A DNA stretch of 38,926 nt from Tritrichomonas foetus. Taxonomy: Eukaryota > Parabasalia > Tritrichomonadida > Tritrichomonadidae. The position numbers were made by a program, and so were the translations under genes. The DNA lies in the NCBI GenBank assembly GCA_001839685.1, contig MLAK01001017.1, forward strand, positions 1 through 38,926, given 5' to 3'. The notes beneath the pieces are model-generated. The model had not been told where the DNA came from. It ran no database searches and was given only the letters and a program-made list of their open reading frames with translations. The number at the start of each line of letters is the position of its first letter. Within the stretch, counting starts at the first letter, position 1. Positions 7,707 to 37,790 of this stretch are shown one piece after another.

Positions 7707-8463
7707 GGAGGAAAATCGGTGATTGAAGACTTTAAACATTGTTTTATGGCAAATTCACAGCCTCTCTTACCAAAATTAAGAGAATCTACGAATTCATCAA
7801 AAATAAAATAAGTTTTTTGTTTATGTTGAAAAATATTGCTTGGTTCTTTCATTTCATAAGTTATTCCCCTTTAATAAATTCTCATAAATCAGATGCATCA
7901 TTTCAATCAACTTGCACTATCAAGCCAGATAATATATAACCTTCATCGGTTACGTGCTTTTCTTGCTTTTTAATATGGAAAATATTTTTTTTATAAAAGT
8001 TTGAGGGTGATTGGTATCATGGGAAAAAATAGAATATTTATCTATTAGCATTAGAGATGCCTTTGGATCAATTTCTTCAACATGATTGCTCTCTTCATTT
8101 TCGATATTAAATGATATGATTAGGTATCACTTCTTTGAATTTATATGAAATAATGAGTTAGAAAGACTTCATTTAATGCTCACTGTGACCAGCCAGCCAA
8201 AAGTTTTTTTATTGACAGTCAAATTTTATGATTTCAAAAAATTGAACAAATCATTGGATTTTCCTTCTATGCAATTCCGCTATACTTGTGTTCATTTTAT
8301 TATCTGATAAATCCTATTCCTGAGCTCAATAATAATTACTAATGAGAATTTATTAGAGTAATCAATTATTTGAATGACATTGAATAATTTAAATCCTTCT
8401 CAATATTTTGAATAAGAGGTCAATTTATGTGGAGTCGGCCCTTAAATAAAAATGAAATTTCAT
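7333..8463. other. AT-rich intergenic stretch containing a poly-A tract
   Basis: No gene supported. It holds the A71 run listed separately. The apparent minus-strand ORF across it (poly-Phe) is an artefact of the homopolymer. Confidence 0.45.
7635..7705 (+). repeat. 71-base A homopolymer
   Basis: Uninterrupted A from 7635 to 7705. The length is at the limit of what assemblies resolve, so the true length is uncertain. It is too long for chance even at this AT content and could be a retroposed tail, a replication-slippage tract or an assembly join. Confidence 0.9.
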
Positions 8464-8465
8464 TA

Positions 8466-8584
8466 CAGTCGTTTTCGAAATAGAATATTTCAGTTTTCGA
8501 AATAGAATTTCCTATCGGTTTTATGTTTCAAAATAAAATTTTTTTTTATCGAAATTGAATTATTTTGTTTCGAAATAGAATTTC
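8466..8584 (+). repeat. left TIR plus subterminal motif array
   Basis: The first 14 bases match the inverted right end exactly. Copies of TTTCGAAATAGAAT(TT) lie at 8473-8486, 8495-8510 and 8568-8583. A degenerate form (GAAATTGAATT) lies between them. These are plausible transposase binding sites. Confidence 0.8.
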
Positions 8585-8687
8585 ATTAACCGAAAAATTT
8601 TTCAAAATAAAATAATTTTGTTCCGATTTAAAATTTCACAAAAATCAATCTTTTTCTATGAGTTATCTCAAAAAGTTCAAAATTGAA

Positions 8688-8716
8688 TCGCGAGGTGAGC
8701 TTCTCTCACCTCGCGA
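8688..8716. other. perfect 12-bp stem-loop
   Basis: Arms 8688-8699 and 8705-8716 (TCGCGAGGTGAG and its complement) with a 5-nt loop. It is much more GC-rich than its surroundings. It lies ~420 bp downstream of the fusion gene's stop and could be an RNA hairpin in the 3' region or a DNA structure for transposition. Confidence 0.7.
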
Positions 8717-8849
8717 AAACCACACACTTTGGCATAAAAATAAAAAAATACAAAAAATCGTAGAGATTTAGCTTATGAATAACGATTTAGTTGACTTTTA
8801 TGTAGAGAAATAAAAAACTATATTCGATGAATATTATGCTATCTTTCTC

Positions 8850-8885
8850 GGGGCTGGGGGGGATATGGGGGGTATTTGGGTGGGG
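8850..8885 (+). other. G-quadruplex-type G cluster
   Basis: Five G runs (8850-8853, 8856-8862, 8867-8872, 8878-8880, 8882-8885) are separated by 1-5 bases, and further G runs follow to about 8940. This fits a canonical intrastrand quadruplex on the + strand and is striking in such AT-rich DNA. Confidence 0.7.
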
Positions 8886-9132
8886 AGGATGTAGACTCTT
8901 TTTTAGGGGCGCGGGAATATATGGGGTTAATTTAGGGCGGGCTGAATAAAATTAAAAAATTTTCAAAAATTTGATGTGTGTCTTGTGATGTGAAAATCAA
9001 ATCAAAATAAGAGGAAAAGATTTTTATGTAAAGTATTAATGGATTAAAAATANATATATATATATATAAAAAACTGTTGATATGTAATTGTTTATTATTA
9101 GTGTATGTTTCTGTTGAATATATTAATTATTC

Positions 9133-11310
9133 TCATATGTTTTCACGGTTTAATACTTTGGCAAATACCTTGGTTGATACATGAGTCATAACTTTACGAA
9201 TTTCAGTGGGGTCGATATGATTAAAACAATTAGCTATCTTTTGATATAAATCCATTTCATTTGACCAGTCTTTCACTTCTCTTTTGATGATACTCTTCCA
9301 ATGACCAAAAATGAGCTCAATCGGATTGAGCTCTGGTGAATATGCAGCATTATAAATAGCAACATGATTTCCTTTCTGGACAATATTTTCAATTCGACTG
9401 TGAATCTTGGCATTATCCATCCAAAAAACAATATTTCCTTGTTTCTGCAGTGAGTTAATCAAGTATTTCATGAAAGCTTGAAAAAGTTCTCCATTCACTG
9501 TCCCTGGGACAAGAAGACAATAAGACATTCCATTGTTTGATATGGAAGCAATCGCAGAACATCTATATGCTTGTGGTTTAACATTAATAAAGGCTTTTTC
9601 TCCTTTTTGTGACCAAGCTCTTCTGCGAATTGTTCCAATTTCGATCGACACTTCATCAACTGCTGACCAAACAAATCCCTCAGTAATATAATGATTAAGC
9701 AGTTTAATTCGTTCAATTCTTAGATCTTTATTTGATTCAGCATTTGATGATGGGCCGCGAATTGAAGCTACTTTGAAAGAATAAACATTACAACCAAAAT
9801 CATCAGCAATCCTGTGAGATGTTGCATAACGATAAATGGATGAATACGATGGAATTTGATCATTACTGGTACTGTCGTTTTGAAGAGCAATTTGGCGAGC
9901 TACTTCTCTGAGTGACTCTGTAGAATGTTCTTCAAGTTCATCATGAATTAATTGTGCGAAATGAGGTGTGATTTTGGATTTTCTTCCCCTTTTATATTGT
10001 TTAATTTCTATAGATTCTCCTTTTTTCAGCTGGTATAATAACTTTTTACAATTTCCAAGCTTAATTCCTGATTCTGCCGAATATTCCAGTGGTGTTTTTT
10101 TGTCACCATTTACTTGATAAAGTTTTGTTAATAATCTTCTTGCGTCATTTGTTGTTTTTTGGTATGCTCTCTTTTCTTGTGATGCACTTTCTTCTGTGGG
10201 TGATGTTGATTCTGGAAACGAAAGAATGATGGGCGTTGATAGATCATTAAGATCTTGTGATGCAATTCTCGTTGCTTGTGTACTTTCTGGGTTTGGGGCA
10301 TTTCTAATAAATGTTTCAAGTGCATCTTCTTGTCGACTATCTAAAAAGTTCACTTGTTGAATACATGAATTAACTTCTGGTGCTACGTATTGTATTCCAT
10401 TTTGATTGTTGCTTCCTTCTGATGCACTAAATAATGAATCTATTTCATCTTGTGAAATATATGCAACAATATAAGCAAGAGTTTGCGGTGTCATATTTCC
10501 TTGTCCGATGTATAGAACATTTGGTTGATCTTCGATCACTAATGAATCATTGAAAGTATATACTTTGCTTGTAGCAAATTCATAACAGTGTGTAATATAA
10601 TGGCCCCATTGGGGATCAGTAATTTGATTTGTGTTGTGATTGATTACTCCATATAATCGATATTGTTTTCCATGATACATGATTTCAGGAGAGTATTTCA
10701 CAGGTGTAGTGTTTCGTTGTGCATTGTCACCATCGATCTCCACTCTTCGAATCATGAACAACAAAACTGATGGGGATTTGATAATGCGTATCGACTGTGA
10801 AATTCGTTCAGGAGCATCTGAGATTAATACATGTGGTGCTTCTGCGATTGAATTGATATGCTTTTGTAAATCACCAATTTCAGGGCTTACATTTTCGAAA
10901 ATAAATTTTTCATTGGAAATATTTTCTTCTTCGTCAGTACCATTCGAATAATATGTTATAATCTGTTTTTCTATTAAAAACAAGTTATATAAATCGCTAC
11001 AGTTAGGATCACGACAGTGTTCATTGATACTTTCCAAAAATTTTAAAAGAAATTCGTGCGCGTCTTTTTGTTCAATTTGATTAATATTTTCAACAAATTT
11101 CATTCCGGTAACAAGGAGTGCTTCAAGATCTTCCTTTTGGAAATTTTCAGTATGTGAAAAAAACTTGAGAATCTGTTTTCCTTCTTCATCTTTATATTCG
11201 AGTTGTTGCAATGTTTTGTTAAACTTGGTGATATTAAGCATTAGCTGCAAAACAGAGGCTGCAAAACAAGTGTTGCCCAAATTTCTTATGCCGATTTTAT
11301 GTCCAAGCAT
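9133..11310 (-). CDS. ubiquitin-specific protease-DDE transposase fusion (725 aa)
   Basis: One uninterrupted 725-codon ORF from an ATG. Residues ~5-285 form a C19 ubiquitin-specific protease: Cys box GIRNLGNTCFAAS with Cys15 and oxyanion Asn10, the QKDAHEFL block (81-88), and a His box WGHYITHCYEF with His237 followed by FNDS with Asp255, so the catalytic triad looks complete. Residues ~290-380 are an S/T/E-rich linker. Residues ~385-500 look like paired helix-turn-helix domains joined by a basic RGRKSK stretch. Residues ~545-685 are a Tc1/IS630 DDE domain with Asp552 (SAVDEVS), Asp632 (FWMDNAKIH) and Glu665 (SPELNPIEL), about 32 residues between the last two. USPs cleave ubiquitin from proteins; the C-terminal half should bind the ends and move the element. 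A joint role, such as shielding the transposase from proteasomal decay or editing chromatin ubiquitin, is inference. Confidence 0.92.
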   Translation of the reverse strand: MLGHKIGIRNLGNTCFAASVLQLMLNITKFNKTLQQLEYKDEEGKQILKFFSHTENFQKEDLEALLVTGMKFVENINQIEQKDAHEFLLKFLESINEHCRDPNCSDLYNLFLIEKQIITYYSNGTDEEENISNEKFIFENVSPEIGDLQKHINSIAEAPHVLISDAPERISQSIRIIKSPSVLLFMIRRVEIDGDNAQRNTTPVKYSPEIMYHGKQYRLYGVINHNTNQITDPQWGHYITHCYEFATSKVYTFNDSLVIEDQPNVLYIGQGNMTPQTLAYIVAYISQDEIDSLFSASEGSNNQNGIQYVAPEVNSCIQQVNFLDSRQEDALETFIRNAPNPESTQATRIASQDLNDLSTPIILSFPESTSPTEESASQEKRAYQKTTNDARRLLTKLYQVNGDKKTPLEYSAESGIKLGNCKKLLYQLKKGESIEIKQYKRGRKSKITPHFAQLIHDELEEHSTESLREVARQIALQNDSTSNDQIPSYSSIYRYATSHRIADDFGCNVYSFKVASIRGPSSNAESNKDLRIERIKLLNHYITEGFVWSAVDEVSIEIGTIRRRAWSQKGEKAFINVKPQAYRCSAIASISNNGMSYCLLVPGTVNGELFQAFMKYLINSLQKQGNIVFWMDNAKIHSRIENIVQKGNHVAIYNAAYSPELNPIELIFGHWKSIIKREVKDWSNEMDLYQKIANCFNHIDPTEIRKVMTHVSTKVFAKVLNRENI
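9313..9333. other. 9-bp perfect hairpin over the DDE glutamate codons
   Basis: Arms 9313-9321 and 9325-9333 with a 3-nt loop. They encode the PELNPIEL block. Codon repetition (E-L twice) may explain it. Confidence 0.5.
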
Positions 11311-11317
11311 TTTAAAA

Positions 11318-11322
11318 AATGA
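11318..11322 (-). promoter_or_regulatory. initiator (Inr)-like TCATT of the fusion gene
   Basis: On the minus strand TCATT precedes the ATG at 11310, with A+1 ten bases upstream. This fits the trichomonad initiator TCA(+1)Y(A/T) and supports both the chosen start and host-type transcription of the transposon. Confidence 0.6.
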
Positions 11323-11507
11323 AGTGTTAAAAATTAGATAATCTTCAAGGTGATTGAGTGTGTTGATCTTCGTACGTTATTATTAAATTAAGAAGAATTC
11401 TACTCGTCGGTTTAGTTTATTTTTGTGTGTTTCGTGTTTATATTTTATGTCGGGTATAAAATTTCATCTAACAAAAATGATAAATAATCTACTATTCCAC
11501 TAATAAA

Positions 11508-11750
11508 AAAATTCTATTTCGAAACAAAAAAATTTTATTATGAAACAAATTATGGTTGTTTTGTAAACTATTCAAATTTTAAAATTCTATTTCGAAAAAA
11601 AAATCGGTTAAGATTCTATTTCGAAAACATTGGAAAGCAAATCGAAACATTTTGAAAGCTTTTCGAAAAATATTCTAGTTTCTTATATAAACCATTGAAA
11701 TACTGAAATTCTATTTCNAAACACAAAGAAAACCAATTCGAAAACGACTG
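11508..11750 (-). repeat. right TIR plus subterminal motif array
   Basis: The terminal 14 bases (11737-11750) match the left end. Inverted copies of the subterminal motif lie at 11508-11523, 11582-11597, 11613-11626 and 11706-11721 (one ambiguous base). The array is longer than on the left, so the ends are asymmetric. Confidence 0.8.
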
Positions 11751-11752
11751 TA

Positions 11753-28424: not shown

Positions 28425-29450
28425 ATGATAAATCGACCTTTAGACAACCAGAACGAAATCCATGTCCAAGAAGTCGAAGAGCGTAGTGATGATTCCGACA
28501 ATCAAAAAATTCCAAATGCAGATTCAAAATTCAGACAACAGCGCGTCCCAGCTTGCCGACCCTTCCTTACGCCATTATCCGCAGCAATTATTTACGGAGT
28601 CTTTTGCGTGATTTCGCTCACATTCGGCTTAATTTATTTTAAAGCATCAGACGATATCTTCGAATTAGAGATTCCATATTCAAATGAATGTCAGACAAAT
28701 TCAAGCTGTCAAATTAGTTTTACTGTAAATGAAGATCGAAAAGGACCATTTTTCATTTATTATCAATTGACCAACTTCTACCAAAATAATTTTATGTATG
28801 GCGATTCCAAAAATTGGGACCAACTTCGCGGTAAAGCCTATAAAAAGGAATCTAATTTAGATTCTTGTGCACCTGTCATTAAATCGGCCGATGGTGAAAA
28901 TTTCACCACAACCGTTTTTGTACCATGTGGTGCTGTTCCACATTCAGTGTTTAATGATTCCTTCATATTTTCTGCAGAATTTCCAACAGTTTCAGATGAT
29001 GGAATTACATTAAGTACTTATCGCAAACTTTTCAATGAACCAAATGAGATATATAATAATTCAAATCATTGGATGAACACAGAAATGTTTCCAGGTGAAC
29101 AAACAAACCCACATTTCATAAATTGGATGCAATTAGCTCCATTTTCCACTTTTCGAAAACTTTTTGCAAAAACTGAAAGTGACGTTGAATTGAAAAAAGG
29201 TGAATATTCTGTATTAATTAATAACAACTTCCCTGTGGCTCAGTTTGATGGTACCAAATCGATAATTATCGCACAAGTTGAATGGATTGGTGGTAAAAAT
29301 CGATTTTTCGGAATTTTCTTCTTTGTGATGTGCGGAATTTCGGGGTTTGCTGCACTTTTGTTCATGATTTTGTATTTCACGAATGCTTTGCCATTGTATC
29401 GCGCATTAAAGAATTCAGGTGGATCCCTTGATATGAGTCTCGTCAACTAA
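28425..29450 (+). CDS. CDC50/TMEM30 family, P4-ATPase flippase subunit
   Basis: 341 aa, full length for the family. CDC50 proteins are the beta subunits that let P4-ATPases leave the ER and translocate aminophospholipids. Visible features are an acidic cytoplasmic N-terminus, the signature FRQQRVPACRPFLTP (36-50), TM1 ~51-71, a lumenal domain with YYQLTNFYQNN (112-122), four cysteines C89/C95 and C148/C168 placed like the conserved disulfides, VPCGAVPHSVFND (166-178), FINWMQLAPFSTFRKLF (231-247), FDGTKSIIIAQVEWIGGKNRFFG (274-296) and TM2 ~296-318 with a short cytoplasmic tail. Several N-x-S/T sites fall in the lumenal loop. Upstream is a CCCCGTCTCCG stretch but no clear initiator. No intron is seen. 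Confidence 0.95.
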   Translation: MINRPLDNQNEIHVQEVEERSDDSDNQKIPNADSKFRQQRVPACRPFLTPLSAAIIYGVFCVISLTFGLIYFKASDDIFELEIPYSNECQTNSSCQISFTVNEDRKGPFFIYYQLTNFYQNNFMYGDSKNWDQLRGKAYKKESNLDSCAPVIKSADGENFTTTVFVPCGAVPHSVFNDSFIFSAEFPTVSDDGITLSTYRKLFNEPNEIYNNSNHWMNTEMFPGEQTNPHFINWMQLAPFSTFRKLFAKTESDVELKKGEYSVLINNNFPVAQFDGTKSIIIAQVEWIGGKNRFFGIFFFVMCGISGFAALLFMILYFTNALPLYRALKNSGGSLDMSLVN

Positions 29451-30946: not shown

Positions 30947-33373
30947 ATGGAATTGACAACAATCGACTTTGATTCAAAAACTCCTGATGAAATCAGAGAG
31001 ATGACAGAAGCTCTCCGTGCGGAAGCAAATAAACTCAAAGAGCAACAAGATAACAACGAAAGACTGATTCGAGAGGGCCGCGAAAACGTACGAAAGCTCA
31101 TTCCGAACGTAACAGAATTCCAAGAGATTGCAAACCGTCGAGCCGAACAGCTTGAGCGACGAAGACGCTACGAAAGGAAGATTTTGTCAATCTATAATCG
31201 TTTTCCATCAATTCTCAACGCTGACCAACCGCAAATTATCTCGACTGATATTCAAATCCTCAACCGTCAGCTTGAACTCATCGAAAAGCGCGAACAAGCA
31301 GCCAAGGCACAAATCGCAGAATTAACCAAAAAACAAGAAAGACTCGAACAGGTTATCGTCGATCTTAGACGCCAAAACCGTCTCCAGACAGACCTCATGG
31401 TTCAACGTGATCAAGATAAGGCTCAACTCACTCATACCCTCAAACAAGAATTAGAAGCCTCCAAGACTCTCTACGTGTCAGATGGTCGTTCAATTGAAAG
31501 GAAAACAACAGTGGCTGAAAATGTTACAGCTGATTTGAATAATCAGTTAAATTCGCTCAAAACCCAATTCGAAACATTATCCAAGCAGCGAGTTTCAGTA
31601 ATGCAAAATGCGCCAACACAGAACGCAATGATATCTCAGAAGATTGTTCAGAAGCAGCAAGACCTTCTGAAATCGATCGATACATTCATCAATTGGTGGA
31701 GCGGCCGTAGAATGCTCAGGCATTATACAGACAGGCAAGAATTCCTGACTGGCGTTGAAACCAAGACGCAAGAAAGAAATGACCAAAGCTACAAATCAAT
31801 CGAATTTATCAAGCGTGGAAACTCTTCACGTGTTGAAGAATTGAAGTCACTCCAAAACATGAACACACAGCTTGCAAATTCGATTAAAGAGAAGCAGGCC
31901 AAAAGAACTGAACTTGATGAAAGAAAACAAGACCTTTTGAAATCTTTCAAACCTTTACCAAAGGATGTCGATGCACAATTGAAGTCATTGAGAGAACAGA
32001 AAATTGCTCTCAATAATCGTGCAAAGTCTCTCGACATCGAATTGCAGGTTCTTGGTGTAAACGGACCAAATCGCGCTGAAGCACGCTATGAAGATGCCCG
32101 TCGTCACTACCGTTCGCAAATTCAGACTGCTGCTCGTTTGAAGAAGAGCATTGCAAACTTGAAACAACTGGCAAGCGATCACAATAATGGACCAAAGAAC
32201 CAATTTGTTACACCACTCACTACTATACAAGATTCTCGTCTCCTTCTATCCGAAGATGCCCCATACGTTGTACAAGCAGCTTCCCTCGAATTATTGGAGA
32301 AACTCGTATTCAATCCAGCCAACGATGATCGCGACTTCTACACTGGTCTCCTTGTTTTCGTTCATACTGAGAAGCTCGATATGCAAAGCTTCGTACAAGC
32401 ACTCATCAGCTTCCACAACAACAGCGAATACGTTCAATATCGCGAAGAAAGATTGAAGGATCTTGTTGAAATTTGGCGCAAATGGTTCCCCAACGATTTC
32501 CAAGATGCACAAACTAGGTCAATTCTTTCTCCATTGATTAACCTTGTTGGTATCACTGGAATGTATGATGTTCAACCTCCACTTAAGGTGAATGTTGTAT
32601 TCAACACAAACGTTCCATTCAACGCCAAGGAAACAAAGATTCCATTCTGCGCATCACCATTGATCATTGCTGAACACTTCACCTACCAAGAATTGATCAT
32701 TTTGAGAAACATCCAAGCTTCTGAATTCGTCGGATGTGGCTGGACATCAACTGACAAATGGACCAAAGCTCCACACATCATGAAGATGACTGAACACTTC
32801 AACTTCATCTCCCAATGGATCGTTTTCTCATTAATCAGCACTGAAGGTGTTGAAGAAAGAATTGCTTTGCTTGAACGTTGGATCCAAATCATGGATGCTG
32901 CAGCCGAAATTGTAAACTTCCAGCTTGTTTTCGAAATTTATGCAGCACTTTGTAATCCAGCAATCACACACCTTCAATCCACATGGCAAGGACTTGCATC
33001 CGAAACAATGGATGTCTACAGGAGATATGCAAATTTGGCTTCACCATCAGCAAGATTTGCCAATTATCGCAACGAACTCGAAAAATTCCCACCTGAAACA
33101 ATCGTTCCATACATTGGTCCATTCCTTACCTCCCTTGTGTATATCTCCGATGGTAATCCTTCAAAGAAGGCACTTCCAAATGTCTCTGAACCAGTTATCA
33201 ATTTCCAGAAGTTCAGAAGCTACGCAAACGTGTTGAATGACATCATGGTCCCATGGGGCAAGGATATGGTTTTCTACCTTAACGAAGATCTCCTCAAGCG
33301 TATCCAGAACATTCCACCTGTCGAGTTGTCTGAAAGTGAGCTCTTCCAGAGATCACAGAAATTAAAGACATAA
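30947..33373 (+). CDS. RasGEF (CDC25-homology) protein with coiled-coil N-terminus
   Basis: 808 aa. Residues ~12-415 are long charged coiled-coil segments (for example EALRAEANKLKEQQDNNERL and ELTKKQERLEQVIVDLRRQ) interrupted near 245-265 by the aromatic patch INWWSGRRMLRHYTDRQEF. Residues ~425-535 look like the RasGEF N-terminal (REM) domain: DFYTGLLVFVHTEKLDMQSF, YREERLKDLVEIWRKWFP. Residues ~570-795 are the catalytic CDC25 domain: IIAEHFTYQELIILRNI, PHIMKMTEHFNFISQWIVFSLI, NFQLVFEIYAAL, RRYANLASPSARFANYRNEL and PYIGPFLTSLVYISDGNP. It should load GTP onto a Ras/Rap-type GTPase. The coiled coil probably dimerises it or tethers it to membrane or cytoskeleton. Codon use is more GC-rich than the flanks. 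The ATG at 30947 has no clear initiator. Confidence 0.92.
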   Translation: MELTTIDFDSKTPDEIREMTEALRAEANKLKEQQDNNERLIREGRENVRKLIPNVTEFQEIANRRAEQLERRRRYERKILSIYNRFPSILNADQPQIISTDIQILNRQLELIEKREQAAKAQIAELTKKQERLEQVIVDLRRQNRLQTDLMVQRDQDKAQLTHTLKQELEASKTLYVSDGRSIERKTTVAENVTADLNNQLNSLKTQFETLSKQRVSVMQNAPTQNAMISQKIVQKQQDLLKSIDTFINWWSGRRMLRHYTDRQEFLTGVETKTQERNDQSYKSIEFIKRGNSSRVEELKSLQNMNTQLANSIKEKQAKRTELDERKQDLLKSFKPLPKDVDAQLKSLREQKIALNNRAKSLDIELQVLGVNGPNRAEARYEDARRHYRSQIQTAARLKKSIANLKQLASDHNNGPKNQFVTPLTTIQDSRLLLSEDAPYVVQAASLELLEKLVFNPANDDRDFYTGLLVFVHTEKLDMQSFVQALISFHNNSEYVQYREERLKDLVEIWRKWFPNDFQDAQTRSILSPLINLVGITGMYDVQPPLKVNVVFNTNVPFNAKETKIPFCASPLIIAEHFTYQELIILRNIQASEFVGCGWTSTDKWTKAPHIMKMTEHFNFISQWIVFSLISTEGVEERIALLERWIQIMDAAAEIVNFQLVFEIYAALCNPAITHLQSTWQGLASETMDVYRRYANLASPSARFANYRNELEKFPPETIVPYIGPFLTSLVYISDGNPSKKALPNVSEPVINFQKFRSYANVLNDIMVPWGKDMVFYLNEDLLKRIQNIPPVELSESELFQRSQKLKT

Positions 33374-33831: not shown

Positions 33832-34740
33832 TCATTGAATCTGCAATTTTCCATTAACAAATTTCGGCATAGTTGATGCATCAAATTCTATTCCTTCATA
33901 TGGAAGAGGCATATCGTAATCAAATATCCTATTCAGTGATGGAGCAGTCATTGGATTCTTCACTTCCAACTTCTTCACATCGCCCTCATTAAAAACTCCT
34001 TCATTTTTATTTTCATTTTCATGTTCATGTTCATCTTCTTCATTTTCCTTTTCTTTGTTTGAGGTGAAAATTTTCTGGTCGATGAGAAGCAGCTTTTCGA
34101 TGACGGCCTGGCCGTTTGGATCGACTGTTCCAAGGTACCTTCCGCGGATTCCGAATTTGGTCCAATCAGGCGAATGCGTCCCCGGCGCGGGAAGCTCGTG
34201 CGAGAAGTAGCAGGACGCCCCGTGCGTGCACTCGTTCGAGAGCCACTGCGGGCAGACTGGCGCCTTTTTGAAGGATAGATATGGGTCGCTGGCGACGACC
34301 TGCTGCACGCGAGTAATGGTCACCGGATCGAGGTGGAGGATTCGCTCTCTGAGTGAGCCGTCCATCCAATTTTCATTATTTTCGATTTGTCTGTCTTGAA
34401 GGCGGTTGTTGTACCATCGACGAGCTGTTGACTTGTAGTCCTCCTGTTGCATGTGGAGGAGCTTGTTTCTGACGACGACTGGGATTCCGAAATCGAGATC
34501 GAATAATGAGACTTGGCAGACGTTCGCTGTTTTGGCGCAGATTTGACAGATCAATGTTTTGAAAGGAACTCCGTCGATTCTCCAAAAGAAAACTGAAAAA
34601 GGGCGTTCGCATATTGCGCATTCGCGGCTGAGCCTTGCTTTCGTCATTTGAAAATGTTTGTCCTTTGGCAGGATTCCTTGATAAACAAGAGGGAACTTTG
34701 GATCGAGGAGATCAAGAAGAGATGATGGAGTTGCTGTCAT
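33832..34740 (-). CDS. RBM22: RBM22/SLT11(ECM2)-like pre-mRNA splicing factor
   Basis: 302 aa from ATG 34740; the longer reading needs a TTG start and is rejected. RBM22/Slt11/Ecm2 binds U6 snRNA and the intron in the activated spliceosome. Matching features are a zinc region RECAICERPFSVFFWRIDG...ICQICAKTANVCQVSLFDLDFGIPV (C41, C44, C65, C68, C75), a short RRWYNNRLQDRQIE segment (108-120) like that of RBM22, a CCCH finger PVCPQWLSNECTHGASCYFSHELP (C163, C171, C177, H181) and GRYLGTVDPNGQAVIEKLL (200-218) at the RYYGINDP position. The RRM that normally follows is missing; instead an acidic EDEHEHENENKNEG stretch and a ~50-residue tail end the protein. An initiator-like TCATA lies 6 nt upstream. 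The family assignment rests on motif order. Confidence 0.85.
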   Translation of the reverse strand: MTATPSSLLDLLDPKFPLVYQGILPKDKHFQMTKARLSRECAICERPFSVFFWRIDGVPFKTLICQICAKTANVCQVSLFDLDFGIPVVVRNKLLHMQQEDYKSTARRWYNNRLQDRQIENNENWMDGSLRERILHLDPVTITRVQQVVASDPYLSFKKAPVCPQWLSNECTHGASCYFSHELPAPGTHSPDWTKFGIRGRYLGTVDPNGQAVIEKLLLIDQKIFTSNKEKENEEDEHEHENENKNEGVFNEGDVKKLEVKNPMTAPSLNRIFDYDMPLPYEGIEFDASTMPKFVNGKLQIQ

Positions 34741-37319: not shown

Positions 37320-37790
37320 TTAAGAATTTGTGGAGATTTCCCATGGTTCCTGACACATTGGACATGTTCTGTTCTTGGCGAGCCATCTTTCGAGGCAGTG
37401 CAAATGAAATTCGTGATTGCATTTTCCGCGCTGCTTTGGGCAGGTTGATGGGTCGGTAATGCCCTGCGCCTGACAGTGAATGCATGGATCGGAAAGTAAG
37501 TTTCGGCAAATGATGCAGTTATCTTGAGCGACATTCGAAACTGATATATAAACTGGACAAAACTTTCGCATGACTAATTTCGGCTGTGCTTGTTCGACTG
37601 GGGCTCCGTCTGTTTCTGCTCCCCCTGCGTGGGATGCTCCTGCGGCTGCTCCGCGTGATGCGCCGCGGGCTCCTCGGGCGCCGCGTGCACCGCGTGCAGC
37701 GCCTCTTGAACCAGCTGGTCTGGCACCTGCTGGGCGAGCTCCAGCGGCCTTCTTTGGTGCTGGGGCTGGTTGGTTTGGTTCTTCCGACAT
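37320..37790 (-). CDS. RBX1: RBX-type RING-H2 protein, cullin-RING ligase subunit
   Basis: 156 aa from ATG 37790; a longer reading needs a GTG and is rejected. RBX proteins recruit E2 enzymes to cullins. The RING-H2 domain is DNCIICRNLLSDPCIHCQAQ...CPKQRGKCNHEFHLHCLERW...NRTCPMCQEPWEI, with ligands C92, C95, C103, C106, C117, C124, H126, H129, C132, C143 and C146. The C-N-H-x-F-H core and the third zinc cluster (C103, C106, C117) are diagnostic of the RBX/APC11 group. The last ligand is Cys, as in RBX2, whereas RBX1 has Asp, so RBX1 versus RBX2 is unsettled. Residues ~17-60 form an unusual Ala/Gly/Arg-rich extension (ARGARGARGARGASRG) in GC-rich DNA. The cullin-binding strand normally containing W-x-x-V-x-x-W reads FCPVYISVSNV here. 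Confidence 0.87.
   Translation of the reverse strand: MSEEPNQPAPAPKKAAGARPAGARPAGSRGAARGARGARGARGASRGAAAGASHAGGAETDGAPVEQAQPKLVMRKFCPVYISVSNVAQDNCIICRNLLSDPCIHCQAQGITDPSTCPKQRGKCNHEFHLHCLERWLAKNRTCPMCQEPWEISTNS

Follow-up and report, generated by a model that had tools for sequence, protein, structure and literature searches.

A predicted ubiquitin-specific protease is fused in frame to an IS630-Tc1-mariner transposase in a dispersed transposon of Tritrichomonas foetus

Results

The element and its gene

We analysed a stretch of 38,926 nucleotides of contig MLAK01001017.1 from Tritrichomonas foetus, a parasite of cattle; this stretch is here called the window. On its minus strand, positions 9133-11310 hold one uninterrupted ORF that runs from ATG to stop and encodes a protein of 725 aa, in which ORF reading and Pfam place a predicted ubiquitin-specific protease (USP) in a single frame with a transposase. 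An earlier note on this DNA had described the frame as unbroken, and it is: the stop-free frame spans 747 codons, while 500 Markov-1 sequences of the element gave a median of 94 and a maximum of 219. The ORF is the sole long gene of a 3289-bp element with Tc1-type inverted ends and TA flanks. With the TA on each side included, the whole autonomous element lies at 8464-11752 on the minus strand (8466-11750 for the element proper), and its ends, TACAGTCGTTTTCG and CGAAAACGACTGTA, are also present in copies with other flanks. Its terminal inverted repeats, of the kind that characterises the IS630-Tc1-mariner superfamily, are two 48-nt arms given on the plus strand, at 8464-8511 on the stop-codon side and at 11705-11752 on the ATG side (with one N in the window copy); the arms are 77% complementary and, from the outside inwards, read TACAGTCGTTTTCGAA.

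A motif scan detected three subterminal GAAATAGAAT motifs at 8477, 8499 and 8572 (8477-8581, plus strand) and four inverted copies at 11511, 11584, 11613 and 11708 (11511-11717, minus strand), with one further copy elsewhere in the window; these subterminal motifs are candidate transposase-binding sites. An initiator-like TCATT is present 12 nt before the ATG (11318-11322, minus strand) and at -10 and -13 in two copies of the diverged subfamily B described below, and it resembles what we take to be the trichomonad initiator consensus. Ordinary host genes in the window encode a CDC50 family protein (28425-29450), a RasGEF (30947-33373), an STL11_N protein (33832-34740) and an RBX1-type RING-H2 protein (37320-37790).

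The predicted USP half

The Pfam profile UCH matches residues 6-284 (10459-11295, minus strand) over its full length (1-254 of 254; E 6.1e-24; 85.4 bits with a cut-off of 23.9), and DDE_3 matches residues 551-677 (9280-9660, minus strand; E 5.9e-23, above cut-off), while HTH_32 matches below its cut-off. With UCH and DDE_3 both strong, the in-frame fusion of a C19 USP to a Tc1/mariner/IS630 transposase inside a mobile element, as had been claimed, holds up in the profile search that had been proposed as a check, with the helix-turn-helix part coming out only below cut-off.

The codon of the predicted catalytic Cys15 is at 11266-11268 (alignment to subfamily B and USP2), that of the predicted catalytic His237 at 10600-10602 (subfamily B, the metagenomic protein P0003 and USP2) and those of Asn254 and Asp255 at 10546-10551 (USP2, P0003 and subfamily B), all on the minus strand. 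In the alignment to human USP2 in the PDB (E 1.8e-6), Cys15 and His237 fall on Cys276 and His557 at a constant offset, and we take Cys276, His557 and Asn574 to be the catalytic triad of USP2 (human numbering). Because the same offset puts Asn574 on Asn254, Asn254, rather than Asp255, is probably the third catalytic residue and Asp255 a conserved neighbour; Cys15, His237 and Asn254 would then make up the Cys/His/Asp-or-Asn triad of Peptidase C19. Thus, Cys15, His237 (in GHY) and QKDAHEFL are in place as the earlier note had stated, while the third member of its triad, Asp255, should probably give way to Asn254. Subfamily B (TRFO_27008) and P0003 have retained Asn254 as well as Asp255.

The AlphaFold model of the USP half had a mean pLDDT of 42 with 3 sequences in the alignment, and in the model of the whole protein residues 111-318 were mostly below 50, with confident prediction only across most of the transposase half; the USP fold is predicted from sequence homology to Pfam UCH and to USP2 in the PDB. 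There was no ubiquitin domain among the Pfam matches of the window protein and no Gly-Gly in the ORF, and self-processing by the USP was rejected on these grounds.

The transposase half

Helices are predicted at residues 388-505 (9796-10149, minus strand; block pLDDT 62-94), and we interpret this region, based on the AlphaFold model and its Mos1 matches, as DNA-binding, with the number of helix-turn-helix units suggested by the Mos1 match. The best seven matches of the model in the PDB were Mos1 mariner complexes, in which full chains were matched over 359-367 columns at a full-chain rmsd of about 17 A, and the domain placement therefore differs from that in Mos1. Metnase/SETMAR, Sleeping Beauty and Mos1 catalytic domains came next. 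The paired helix-turn-helix of the IS630-Tc1-mariner superfamily is thus represented by the AlphaFold helices and Mos1 matches (with HTH_32 below cut-off) and its DDE/D catalytic domain by DDE_3 above cut-off and by Mos1 as best match in the PDB. NCBIfam transpos_IS630 also matches the window protein, with E 6.8e-20 and 71.7 bits, which is under its curated cut-off of 100. A transposase_11 (pfam01609) domain, which we take to be of the IS4/IS5 type, is absent from the Pfam matches of the window protein.

Asp552 (9655-9657), Asp632 (9415-9417) and Glu665 (9316-9318), named earlier as the DDE set, occupy those positions and are invariant in all 13 aligned proteins, the window protein included. 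Their spacing is DD32E in the window protein, P0002, P0003, P0004, P0005 and P0006, DD34E in P0007 and P0011, and DD33E in P0008. Tc1 is DD34E and mariner DD34D, and the usual transposase has about 340 aa. Because the window protein is DD32E, and not DD34E or DD34D as in the Tc1 and mariner clades proper, we file the element in the IS630-Tc1-mariner superfamily without assigning it to a named clade.

Copies in the genome

A search of the 63.7-Mb T. foetus genome with the window protein identified eight identical full-length ORFs, on contigs C21, C71, C169, C202, C281, C340, C627 (the window) and C849. Three copies are truncated or broken: C826 is without the last 48 residues, C393 has the first 141 residues only and C580 is interrupted by stops, and two, C373 and C226, are diverged and form subfamily B. 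At C226 the USP half alone is readable; an apparent open frame of 1782 aa, which might have been a second kind of USP fusion, crosses an N gap and was rejected. The eight coding sequences have zero variable sites over 2175 nt, part of which may be an effect of the assembler reusing a repeat consensus, because N-runs lie in several copies close to the end on the stop-codon side. Flanks are mutually dissimilar, as judged from 15 flank pieces, taken from the ten subfamily A copies in which at least one end can be read, and both ends are readable in five autonomous copies (C71, C202, C340, C627 and C826). At C281 (L005, 994-1059), the end sequence recurs 65 bp beyond the element, which looks as though an older end had served as the insertion site.

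Twelve short derivatives of 758-762 bp share both ends with the window element (L022-L031, L034 and L035, on C986, C340, C315, C259, C117, C568, C166, C712, C902, C830, C660 and C636); in the part corresponding to element positions 395-547 the similarity falls to about 75%. One or two further derivatives lie beside an N-run at C702, and one of 1604 bp is present at C321. The left flank of the window copy, at about 8106-8446, is 87% like 366 bp (L039, 1141-1506) inside this 1604-bp derivative, which has apparently acquired the type of repeat DNA found beside the window copy. At C238 (49741-54353; L082/L071), about 4.6 kb between sequences resembling the family ends has no match to the window protein and represents a decayed or composite element.

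To examine the target site, the flanks of 18 copies were joined and searched for in the genome, and 40 of the 71 candidates were scored. This gave clean paralogous empty sites for two of the 18 joined sites, both of short derivatives: the C315 site is matched by C941 (92%) and the C259 site by 15 dispersed repeats (87-89%). In base-level alignments, C941, C215 and C126 have a single TA at the junction, in C941 with a 5-base difference beside the TA. Because the TA was included in the end pattern used for the search, the terminal TA is partly given by construction; independent support for a TA target duplication comes from these single-TA empty sites of the two short derivatives. For the five autonomous copies tested, no clean empty site was found. 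C321 was rejected as an empty site of the window copy: one match (83%) ran 16 bases past the join, but at base level the 366 bp that match the left flank at 87% stop some 20 bases before the insertion point.

Relatives and origin of the fusion

A full-length query against about 5.8 billion proteins, in which candidates need shared exact words, returned the window protein and TRFO_27008 alone; a query with the transposase half returned eight additional proteins, among them P0003. This metagenomic protein (615 aa, on a contig of 2560 bases) has the order UCH-HTH-DDE_3 and is 35% identical in the transposase. Its UCH match (E 8.9e-8) covers profile positions 144-240, i.e. without the Cys part, and its helix-turn-helix match is below cut-off, but it keeps the His and Asn-Asp part of the USP. 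Since P0003, from another source, has the same domain order, the architecture occurs elsewhere, as the earlier note had asked to be checked, and the fusion is not a one-off join. A profile search found at least 31 proteins and, among those listed, precomputed UCH domains only in two T. foetus proteins, in a list that is incomplete in that P0003-P0010, known from the transposase-half search, are not among its matches.

In an 18-row tree, the window protein, P0002, P0003, P0004-P0008 and P0011 form one well-supported set (100/99), while the three USP-fused rows grouped together in 27% of bootstrap trees. P0004-P0008 and P0011 have no UCH match. Because these proteins sit in the same clade, transposases of this kind can do without a USP, unless the relatives without UCH have it in a separate gene. 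Residue 5 of the USP-less P0004 aligns with window residue 319 (E 2.6e-14), marking a junction segment at residues 319-345 (10276-10356, minus strand), and P0005 (aligned) and P0011 (by eye) start with stretches similar to that of P0004. Because P0004 begins at this junction, a transposase that was already complete seems to have gained the USP upstream; it is also possible that the USP was lost elsewhere or is encoded by a separate upstream gene, the contigs of P0003-P0011 being just 1.4-7.3 kb long.

In the T. foetus genome, queries with the window protein, P0004 or P0007 yielded no intact USP-less member of the lineage, and P0004 and P0007 gave only short broken fragments. The suspicion that paralogues might lack the USP was thus not borne out: every long intact-frame paralogue found carries it. 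The genome has 73 DDE_3 matches, 41 of them above cut-off, and 10 of these 41 are in USP-fused frames; the other intact DDE_3 frames are unmatched by the P0004 and P0007 queries. The USP family of T. foetus is very large: UCH (PF00443) has at least 143 matches, many in frames of more than 2000 codons. The transposon's are among the weakest-scoring of those listed, and not all of its fusion copies appear in that list. Because the nearest USP relatives outside the family, in the protein search of the genome, are only 19-35% identical, the donor of the USP cannot be named. On viral contigs we found three weak relatives of the transposase and no relative of the USP.

Subfamily B and selection on the USP

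TRFO_27008 (P0002, from C373) carries the same fusion and is publicly annotated as a hypothetical, USP domain-containing protein. Compared with the window protein, it is shorter by 65 residues in the stretch that separates the helix-turn-helix from the DDE region, by 12 residues before Asp632 and by two residues in the USP. Subfamilies A and B are 56% identical in the USP (288 codons) and 82% in the DDE domain (171 codons), and both keep the Cys, His, Asn-Asp and QKD.HEF of the USP and the DDE residues. By NG86, the USP gave dN 0.34 and dS 2.10 between A and B, with dS near saturation and a bootstrap ratio of 0.08-0.30 (166 of 200 replicates yielding a value); for the DDE domain dN was 0.10 and dS 4.8, which is saturated. 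The two B copies differ from each other at 27 nucleotides over 290 codons of the USP, and the resulting ratio of 0.48 indicates weak constraint. Judged by these substitution ratios, the USP is kept under purifying selection in subfamily B.

Discussion

At the level of sequence, the data reported here document the fusion itself, the inverted ends with their TA flanks and the dispersal of the element; they also show that short derivatives share these ends and that both the USP and its catalytic residues have persisted through divergence. Based on these observations, we suggest, at about even confidence, that the element is an autonomous and recently active cut-and-paste transposon of the IS630-Tc1-mariner superfamily, in which an N-terminal C19 deubiquitinase acts in cis, its target being the transposase or the transpososome. 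In this model, the C-terminal half would bind the inverted ends via its helix-turn-helix domains, as in Mos1, and the DDE triad would cut and join at TA, also as in Mos1. The USP, if catalytically active, would strip host-attached ubiquitin from the transposase and the end-bound transpososome. As a result, the transposase may escape proteasomal turnover, or removal from the DNA, for long enough to complete excision and integration. Deubiquitinase activity and its role in transposition are inferred, and the argument for action in cis comes from the fusion alone.

The element shares TA flanks, inverted ends, a helix-turn-helix region and a DDE domain of Mos1 fold with the members of the superfamily (Tc1, Mos1 and Sleeping Beauty, and bacterial IS630), and it differs from them in its N-terminal USP of about 300 residues, its 725-aa protein and its DD32E spacing. 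Fusions between proteases and transposases have been described before. As described in 2010, the Trichomonas vaginalis protein XP_001314237.1 combines transposase_11 (pfam01609) and Peptidase C19 (PMC2836005). According to this description, it is, like the window protein, a parabasalid protein with C19 and a DDE transposase in one chain, and it differs in that its transposase belongs to another superfamily, pfam01609 (PMC2836005). Ginger1, as presented in the same source, has a cut-and-paste transposase that itself includes a protease domain, OTU or Ulp1; unlike the window protein, it has a transposase similar to Gypsy integrase, a C-terminal protease and proteases of other families (PMC2836005). 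The window protein has its best Pfam, NCBIfam and PDB matches in Tc1/mariner/IS630, matches retroviral integrases only at E 0.007 or worse and has an N-terminal protease of the UCH family, which sets it apart from Ginger1. Mutator-like elements with Ulp1 and Helitrons with OTU, as listed there, also carry ubiquitin or SUMO proteases and differ from the window element by their unrelated transposases and in having Ulp1 or OTU rather than C19 (PMC2836005). The T. foetus genome has no pfam01609 match, and a fusion of the T. vaginalis type in this genome was rejected. Among the open-access papers listed, we found no fusion of C19 to a Tc1/mariner transposase. The novelty claimed in the earlier note is accordingly narrower than stated: the C19-transposase_11 protein of T. 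vaginalis was already reported (PMC2836005), protease-transposase fusions as such are known, and what would be new here, judged by those open-access papers, is C19 joined to a transposase of the Tc1/mariner superfamily.

An active USP could instead act on histones or DNA-repair factors at donor or target DNA, where it would open chromatin or steer repair of the excision break. This reading appears rather unlikely to us. The helix-turn-helix half, as modelled by AlphaFold and matched to Mos1, would hold the USP at the transposon ends, and Bao et al. 2010 suggested that Ulp1 and OTU domains of transposases may activate repair factors, with the C19 example named alongside (PMC2836005). However, the argument from the fusion suits protection of the transposase in cis at least equally well.

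It is less probable still that transposition has no need of the USP and that this domain is a passenger or a module, captured from a host gene, for ubiquitin binding or solubility and without catalytic activity. Its faster divergence than that of the DDE domain, the weak constraint between the two B copies, the existence of relatives without a UCH match and an AlphaFold model without a confident USP fold would all be expected of such a passenger. By contrast, A and B, although 56% identical in the USP, share Cys, His, Asn-Asp and QKD.HEF, and P0003 has His and Asn-Asp too; moreover, the bootstrap ratio of the USP remains below 0.31, and the searches of the T. foetus genome yielded no intact copy of the lineage that lacks the USP. 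It is highly improbable that the fusion is an assembly join, arose once when a transposon inserted into a USP gene or belongs to a domesticated host gene: although the assembly is gapped, with N-runs near one end of many copies, the junction recurs in eight identical ORFs on eight contigs, in the diverged C373 and in P0003, which rejects a chimera, and the copies are dispersed with TA-flanked ends.

In the preferred reading, the fused USP may give the element a means of its own to evade or rewire the ubiquitin system of the host. More tentatively, we speculate that it represents a lineage of transposons that depend on an active USP as an obligatory component of the transposase, use it to counter a ubiquitin-based restriction by the host and have spread through parabasalids and other protists. 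Ubiquitin and SUMO proteases accompany several transposases that are unrelated to one another, either in the same protein or in the same element, as described for Ginger1, Mutator, Helitron and the T. vaginalis transposase_11 protein, and the ubiquitin pathway was proposed in 2010 to take part in transposition (PMC2836005). That such a combination turns up again in one more type of transposase may point to a shared pressure from the host.

We know of no simple test system for a role of the ubiquitin pathway in transposition. The element is compact: it has a single long gene, its ends are known, its ORF copies are identical and its short derivatives could serve as substrates. Between the ORF stop and the nearer end, at 8850-8937, it has two strongly G-rich runs with at least four G-tracts each, which resemble G-quadruplex sequences; in the C340 copy an N gap covers this G-rich stretch, and N-runs are present in the same part of other copies.
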